Positions 25,086 to 61,022 of a DNA stretch of 64,000 nucleotides are shown one piece after another. Position 1 is the first letter of the stretch. Every line of letters begins with the position of its first letter. Under the pieces are notes generated by a model, which saw only the letters and a list, made by a program, of their open reading frames with translations, had not been told where the DNA came from and searched no databases. Source of the stretch: Oryzomonas sagensis (GTDB lineage: Bacteria; Desulfobacterota; Desulfuromonadia; Geobacterales; Pseudopelobacteraceae); NCBI RefSeq assembly GCF_008802355.1, contig NZ_VZRA01000002.1, positions 405,642-469,641 on the forward strand, in the 5' to 3' direction. Position numbers and translations under genes: made by a program.

Positions 25086-25114
25086 TTGACAGGATGCCGG
25101 CAAAAGTGTAAATA
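25086..25114 (+). promoter_or_regulatory. Sigma-70 type promoter for the tandem riboswitch transcript
   Basis: TTGACA (25086-25091), 17-nt spacer, TAAATA (25109-25114). Transcription would start near 25120, just upstream of riboswitch 1. Confidence 0.6.
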
Positions 25115-25142
25115 TAAAGAAAATTTGTTGAGTAGTAGATAG

Positions 25143-25252
25143 ACGACAATACTTAACCATCCGCAAGGGTGGGGCGGAAAGCCTACAGGGTCTCACCGAG
25201 ACAGCCGGGTTGCCGAAATATCGCAAAGATATTTGGCCCCGGCTGTTTTTTT
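25143..25252 (+). ncRNA. GEMM-I (GEMM-Ib-like) cyclic-dinucleotide riboswitch 1 with terminator
   Basis: Aptamer 25143-25215: paired P1 ends, AACCATCC-GCAA-GGGTGGGG hairpin, GGCGGAAAGCC core, and GTCTC-ACC-GAGAC hairpin, then AGCCGGGTTGCCG. It closely matches the Geobacter cGAMP riboswitches as I remember them. The expression platform is a terminator: ACAGCCGGG (25201-25209) pairs with CCCGGCTGT, followed by TTTTTTT (ends 25252). Because the terminator uses the 3' part of the aptamer, ligand binding should block termination and turn the gene on. Confidence 0.9.
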
Positions 25253-25285
25253 ATTTTCTTCTCGTCGACTACTCAACAAGGCGAT

Positions 25286-25394
25286 AGCCGATAATACTAA
25301 ACCATTTGCGAGAATGGGGCGGAAAGCCTACAGGGTCTCACCGAGACAGCCGGGTTGCCGAAATGTCACCTCACTTCGGTCCCCGGCTGTTTTT
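25286..25394 (+). ncRNA. GEMM-I riboswitch 2 (tandem copy) with terminator
   Basis: Second aptamer (25286-25360) with AAACCATTTGCGAGAATGGG hairpin and the same GGCGGAAAGCC, GTCTCACCGAGAC and AGCCGGGTTGCCG blocks; terminator 25346-25394 again pairs ACAGCCGGG with CCCGGCTGT before TTTTT. The loop of the terminator differs entirely from copy 1, so the two units are old, independent switches in series in front of the cytochrome gene. Confidence 0.9.
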
Positions 25395-25543
25395 GTGTCC
25401 GGACACGGAAACAACCGAGGGCAGCCACAAGGAGGGATGCAGCGGTTTAAGATTGCATGGTTGACGTTTTTCAACAGTAAACGCAGTGACCACCACCGAG
25501 TACAAACGTGTACAAAACAACAAAGATGATGGAGGAAAGACCT

Positions 25544-26413: not shown

Positions 26414-26527
26414 AGGATACACGATACTACTCAACCATCCGCAAGGGTGGGGCGGAAAGCCTACAGGGTCTCACCGAGACAGCCGGGATGCCGAAATATC
26501 TTTACCGATATGGGCCCCGGCTTTTTT
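26414..26527 (+). ncRNA. GEMM-I riboswitch 3 with terminator, before the O-mannosyltransferase gene
   Basis: Aptamer 26414-26493 shares AACCATCCGCAAGGGTGGGG, GGCGGAAAGCC, GTCTCACCGAGAC and AGCCGGG with copy 1 almost exactly, ending GATGCCG in place of GTTGCCG. The terminator stem AGCCGGG...CCCGGCT runs 26481-26527 and ends in TTTTTT. Same expected on-switch logic. The coding sequence starts 36 nt later. Confidence 0.9.
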
Positions 26528-58357: not shown

Positions 58358-58455
58358 TGGCGGAAGCACATGGGAATCGAACCCACCGGGGAGATTTCTC
58401 ATCCCCCCCACCGGTTTTGAAGACCGGGCGGCCCACCAGCGACCGACGTGCTTCC
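58358..58455 (-). tRNA. selC: tRNA-Sec (selenocysteine, anticodon TCA)
   Basis: 98 nt including an encoded CCA. Long acceptor GGAAGCAC/GTGCTTCC, anticodon arm CCGGTCTTCAAAACCGG with TCA, a large variable arm (GGGGGGGATGAGAAATCTCCCC) and T arm GGTGGGTTCGATTCCC, matching bacterial selenocysteine tRNA. It implies selenoproteins elsewhere in the genome. selA, selB and selD are not in the window. Confidence 0.95.
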
Positions 58456-60909: not shown

Positions 60910-61022
60910 AAAAAAAGCCGGGTCGCCGATATCATTATCCTGATATTTCGGCGACCCGGCTGTCTCTGTAAGACCCGTGGGCTTTCCGTCCCACCCTCGC
61001 GGATGGTTTAGTATTGTCGATA
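60910..61022 (-). ncRNA. GEMM-I riboswitch 4 with terminator (minus strand)
   Basis: Aptamer about 60943-61022: CGACAATACTAAACCATCC, GCGAGGGTGGGACGGAAAGCC and GGGTCTTACAGAGACAGCC. It differs from copies 1-3 by GGGAC for GGGGC in the core and by the shorter P3. The terminator pairs AGCCGGGTCGCCG with CGGCGACCCGGCT and ends TTTTTT (60910-60961). Confidence 0.88.

Follow-up and report, generated by a model that had tools for sequence, protein, structure and literature searches.

Tandem GEMM-I riboswitches of predicted cGAMP type upstream of a PgcA-like cytochrome gene, and two candidate helices of the read-through RNA

The two GEMM-I riboswitches that precede a Pro/Thr-rich cytochrome gene in the window (the whole stretch of 64,000 nucleotides of Oryzomonas sagensis DNA that was analysed) are, as the best explanation overall, very probably two cGAMP-dependent transcriptional ON-switches that control a PgcA-like extracellular cytochrome. 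Pairs of cGAMP switches in tandem have been described before in G. sulfurreducens, and the present pair adds one example. The only part that we consider new consists of two further RNA helices, P0 and H2, of which no description was found within the open-access literature subset that was searched.

Organization of the locus

The source genome (G000, 3.6 Mb, Geobacter group) contains 20 matches to RF01051, and the features of the tandem locus are collected in Table 1. The two matches of the pair span the full model and exceed the gathering score of 35 (cmscan). The predicted fold energies of the terminators are -30.1 kcal/mol (T1) and -28.1 kcal/mol (T2), and when each aptamer is folded together with its terminator the z-score is -5.2 for switch 1 and -3.4 for switch 2; 33 nt lie between the T1 U-tract and aptamer 2. 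These matches and folds, together with the downstream ORF, confirm the preliminary description of the DNA as two complete GEMM-I switches, each with its own terminator, in series before a Pro/Thr-rich cytochrome gene. Overlooked in that description were a third GEMM-I switch further downstream, an inverted repeat between leader and spacer, and a hairpin that follows T2.

Table 1. Features of the tandem riboswitch locus (window coordinates).
Feature	Position	Strand	Basis
Putative sigma-70-type promoter (TTGACA, 17 nt, TAAATA)	25086..25114	+	sequence reading
P0 5' arm (leader)	25125..25136	+	inverted repeat; covariation, 6 loci
GEMM-I aptamer 1, predicted cGAMP type	25141..25217	+	RF01051, 42.7 bits; A at model position 11
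Terminator T1	~25200..25252	+	U-tract 25246-25252; computed folds
P0 3' arm (inter-switch spacer)	25268..25279	+	inverted repeat; covariation
GEMM-I aptamer 2, predicted cGAMP type	25286..25362	+	RF01051, 43.6 bits; A at model position 11
Terminator T2	~25345..25394	+	U-tract 25390-25394; computed folds
Hairpin H2, loop CCGG	25381..25421	+	T2 descending strand and U-tract paired with downstream sequence; 9 loci
PgcA-like secreted monohaem cytochrome, Pro/Thr repeats, 207 aa	25544..26167	+	

A two-component regulator gene lies directly upstream of the locus. The TTGACA of the putative promoter is kept at the same place in orthologous loci; a consensus promoter scan did not report this promoter, which indicates that its -10 element is weak. 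Transcription would be expected to start at about 25120-25122.

The downstream ORF encodes a protein with a signal peptide, extended Pro/Thr repeats and a single CXXCH motif. It gave no match in Pfam, and its C-terminal haem domain recurs across the order. The traits of PgcA, that is a signal peptide, Pro/Thr-X repeats, a CXXCH haem domain and an upstream cGAMP-type switch, were all found. PgcA, which G. sulfurreducens needs for Fe(III) oxide respiration, carries three haems in that species and one in G. metallireducens (PMC5732950). The pgcA switch of G. sulfurreducens, GSUR3008, is likewise a cGAMP switch before a Pro/Thr-repeat cytochrome, but it is described as a single switch before a three-haem PgcA, whereas the present locus has two switches and a one-haem product (PMC5732950, PMC6456294). 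The stringency with which pgcA-like genes are controlled is relevant to metal reduction and to the design of cGAMP reporters.

Predicted ligand of the two aptamers

Both aptamers have an A at RF01051 model position 11, which we take to be the ligand-reading position 20 in Vc2 numbering and at which c-di-GMP switches have a G. The same A was found in 15 of the 20 RF01051 aptamers of the source genome, where G-type (c-di-GMP-like) aptamers occur as well. Of the 73 distinct tandem GEMM-I pairs that were identified in Geobacterales, 72 have the A in both members and the remaining pair is G/G. In Geobacter an A at the ligand-reading position accompanies cGAMP selectivity and the A20G change shifts selectivity to c-di-GMP (PMC6456294). 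The source genome also contains a Hypr GGDEF gene (G000:C3:469734-470201) with Ser in the GHxxGSxxL position (GHLVGSQVL), for which the closest solved structure is 6d9m, the GGDEF domain of G. metallireducens GacA (231 bits versus 152 for the next structure), and the encoded protein is a candidate cGAMP synthase, like GacA. Given the A at position 11 in both aptamers and the presence of this gene in the genome, both switches are predicted to bind cGAMP and to be of the GEMM-Ib type.

Aptamers whose body is of cGAMP type but whose ligand-reading position is a G (GATAATGCTAAACC) were also observed, namely at locus L003 (G000:C2:254256-254331) and in both members of the tandem at locus L055 (1498-1717); these are the natural counterpart of the engineered A20G change.

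Two decisions in series

Each aptamer shares its 3' strand (GACAGCCGGG..GCCG) with its own terminator, in which this strand is the ascending one, and therefore the bound aptamer and the terminator are mutually exclusive. The Geobacter pilM ON-switch has been published with the same exclusion (PMC9262584). In the absence of cGAMP, each aptamer would lose its 3' strand to the terminator hairpin and RNA polymerase would halt at one of the two terminators; bound cGAMP would let each aptamer keep this strand and elongation would proceed, provided that both decisions are passed. The output would be the product of two responses to one signal, with a lower leak and a modestly steeper curve. For two identical and independent switches, ideal arithmetic lowers EC90/EC10 from 81 to 40, gives an effective Hill coefficient of 1.19 and squares the leak.

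The preliminary description had suggested that the pair acts like an AND gate or sharpens the response. The first suggestion does not hold in the Boolean sense, because both aptamers carry the same specificity base and are predicted to read the same ligand. A Boolean AND gate in the strict sense, responding to two distinct ligands such as cGAMP and c-di-GMP, would agree with the two complete switches in series and with the G-type aptamers elsewhere in the genome, but it is very improbable given the A at the discriminating position of both aptamers and the A/A or G/G composition of the 73 tandem pairs. Since each of the two switches is complete, has an expression platform of its own and is predicted to read the same ligand, the pair is expected to act in series and pseudo-cooperatively; pseudo-cooperative is the term used for same-ligand switches in series in preference to AND gate (PMC9481103; 347 c-di-GMP-I doublets had been counted there by 2022). 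The second suggestion, a sharpened response, fits the anatomy of the locus and published work on tandem GEMM switches (PMC9481103, PMC4759541 and PMC6456294), the ideal sharpening being modest.

Two published systems are close to the pair. The G. sulfurreducens tandem before GSU2885 omcAHG, in which RNA is lost at the second switch without gacA, shares with the window pair the GEMM-Ib subclass, the ON logic, two complete switches before a cytochrome gene and a GacA-type synthase, but the downstream gene is a different one and neither P0 nor H2 is mentioned in the part available (PMC6456294). The Bc3-5 triple tandem of Bacillus thuringiensis likewise consists of complete same-ligand GEMM-I ON-switches in series and was shown to be more stringent and digital, the double also being more digital; it differs in its ligand, c-di-GMP, in having three units, and in that a leader-spacer helix is not noted in the available part of the paper (PMC4759541).

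A leader-spacer helix, P0

The inverted repeat between leader and spacer (25125-25139/25265-25279) contains P0, a 12-bp perfect complement whose arms lie 131 nt apart and enclose switch 1; some 4 nt would separate its 5' arm from the site where transcription probably starts. P0 can form only in read-through RNA because its 3' arm emerges only once T1 is passed. A run of complementarity as long as P0 was obtained in 1 of 20000 base shuffles of the leader and spacer stretches. P0 is kept in six orthologous loci, in which 71 of 72 cells pair and three base pairs have changed in both partners, one of them appearing as U-A, A-U and C-G, and the pairing is destroyed by sliding the register. When the arms were permuted among loci, 12 of the 720 permutations were as good as the own arms by pair count and 8 of 720 matched them or were better by energy, the sample being six sequences that are few and mutually related and the statistics taking no account of the tree. 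The arms were registered by hand, MAFFT having set the arm gap in the wrong register, and are joined with an artificial linker in alignment A3. Two neighbouring paralogous loci in G055 differ in P0 by one compensatory pair. It was also observed that two consecutive PgcA-like genes at locus L050 (369-1733) each have their own tandem switch, P0 and H2, with arms that differ by compensatory changes.

P0 occurs in only 6 of the 73 tandem pairs. As a general feature of tandem switches it was rejected, since leader-spacer pairing in most of the 73 pairs was no better than with mismatched leaders, and several of the strong leader-spacer scores stemmed from untranscribed promoter sequence. The idea that the leader acts as an anti-aptamer by pairing with aptamer 1 along its 5' strand (8 bp in the window) was likewise rejected, since L048, with GCUGAG as its leader arm, does not retain this pairing.

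In tandem glycine riboswitches a helix also named P0 pairs the leader with the inter-unit linker around unit 1, but there two aptamers share one expression platform and a kink-turn is present, whereas each aptamer in the window has its own terminator (PMC5666159). Unlike the glycine P0, the window P0 encloses a whole switch including its terminator and forms only past T1; if functional, it would be the terminator-containing counterpart of the glycine leader-linker helix.

A hairpin that excludes T2

The 5' arm of H2 is the descending strand of the last terminator together with the U-tract, and the 3' arm lies downstream. H2 was found in nine loci, eight of them tandem or triple and one, G022, with a single switch, and its loop is CCGG (CUGG in G006). 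H2 and T2 are mutually exclusive and H2 can form in read-through RNA only; as T2 of the window is predicted to be more stable than H2 (-28.1 versus -23.6), H2 would need the bound state or kinetics to form.

The energies of H2 with its own arms were reached by 2 of 20000 permutations, and those of the outer arms alone by 16 of 20000. The inner 11 pairs contain three two-sided changes and their covariation score was reached in none of 500 shuffles, while the number of covarying pairs was ordinary (127 of 500 shuffles). The core of H2 is a near-invariant 12-bp palindrome, and the centre of the hairpin is the palindrome GTGTCCGGACAC. The centre TGTGTCCGGAC is rare, being present in 10 of 141 genomes and mostly at these loci; L176, which also bears TGTGTCCGGAC, is an unrelated locus. 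A conserved short upstream ORF after H2 was considered and rejected, as frames and lengths vary among the orthologs (judged by eye).

Possible roles of P0 and H2

For the same polymerase, P0 and H2 form after the termination decision and can therefore not drive it. In read-through RNA the 5' end of the transcript would pair with the spacer, and the descending strand of T2 and the U-tract would pair downstream. The role that we tentatively favour is that the two helices may shield the read-through mRNA, i.e. its 5' end and the exposed U-tract, from RNase attack, in which case the switch would set mRNA survival as well as elongation. A broader proposal is that P0 and H2 form an additional RNA layer, confined to read-through transcripts, in the GEMM-I tandems that precede pgcA-like genes. 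The two helices would together fix the switch in the ON state and protect the mRNA, and a single ligand decision would then govern both elongation and transcript survival. This proposal is conceivable and on balance rather doubtful. Should P0 and H2 prove functional, GEMM switches would include structures that work at a stage later than the termination decision, which riboswitch models usually leave out.

Alternatively, P0 might be a folding insulator that closes switch 1 as a domain of its own, so that the near-identical switch 2 folds independently, as in tandem glycine riboswitches. P0 bounds switch 1 exactly, its 3' arm emerges just before aptamer 2, and in tandem glycine riboswitches the leader-linker helix is needed in vivo (PMC5666159). 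Against this, P0 is absent from most tandem pairs and cross-unit pairing at equilibrium is negligible both with P0 (0.00 pairs) and with the 5' arm disrupted (0.09 pairs), so that P0 as an equilibrium barrier to cross-unit misfolding is not supported. Insulation is placed next after mRNA protection in our preference and is regarded as unlikely.

The arms could also be features of the DNA and not functional RNA helices, serving as regulator binding sites, in particular the H2 palindrome, or resulting from mutational correction of quasi-palindromes. The near-invariance of the 12-bp H2 core and the two-component regulator gene immediately upstream agree with this, a c-di-GMP switch is known whose terminator DNA binds the regulator Zur (PMC11218506), and quasi-palindrome template switching can yield matching H2 arms without selection. 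However, compensatory changes were found outside the palindrome and in the P0 arms that are 131 nt apart, including those between the two G055 paralogous loci, and an origin at the DNA level is considered improbable.

Age of the tandem pair

Genes of the same cytochrome family are preceded by tandem loci in G006, G007, G023, G055 (two loci), G086 and G096 (triple). The two aptamers of the window are about 90% identical to each other, within-locus identity across loci is about 88-99%, and some homogenisation of units within loci is possible. In a tree of the units, the second switch of the window groups with the second switches of G006 and G023 with 100/100 support, and the position labels are clustered on the tree (values as low in 0 and 2 of 500 shuffles), most inner branches of the tree being weak. 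This clustering of second units across species indicates that the pair predates these species, and a recent duplication as the origin of the window pair is rejected. The preliminary description had concluded from differing terminator loops that the pair is not a recent copy; the loops do differ, and the conclusion stands on the cross-species tree rather than on the loop differences alone. The single switch of G022 is of the second type only.

In the closest congener, G001, no whole match to the tandem leader was found, and other genes flank its nearest-scoring switch. Loci L058 and L070 have a spacer that directly repeats the leader, which points to a recent duplication there. Triple-tandem GEMM-I switches were observed at L189, L085 and L052, two of them before PgcA-like cytochrome genes.

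Other elements in the window

The third GEMM-I switch (26419-26495, plus strand; 38.1 bits, A-type) is 94% identical to unit 1 over 85 nt and precedes a PMT-type mannosyltransferase gene. A promoter-like site of its own follows a terminator-like hairpin, and the third switch is therefore regarded as a separate unit. A fourth GEMM-I switch (60947-61022, minus strand; 49.6 bits, A-type) has a terminator, and a possible ATG on the same strand lies some 50 nt beyond the switch. A selenocysteine tRNA gene was also detected at 58362-58455 on the minus strand (RF01852, 79.5 bits).
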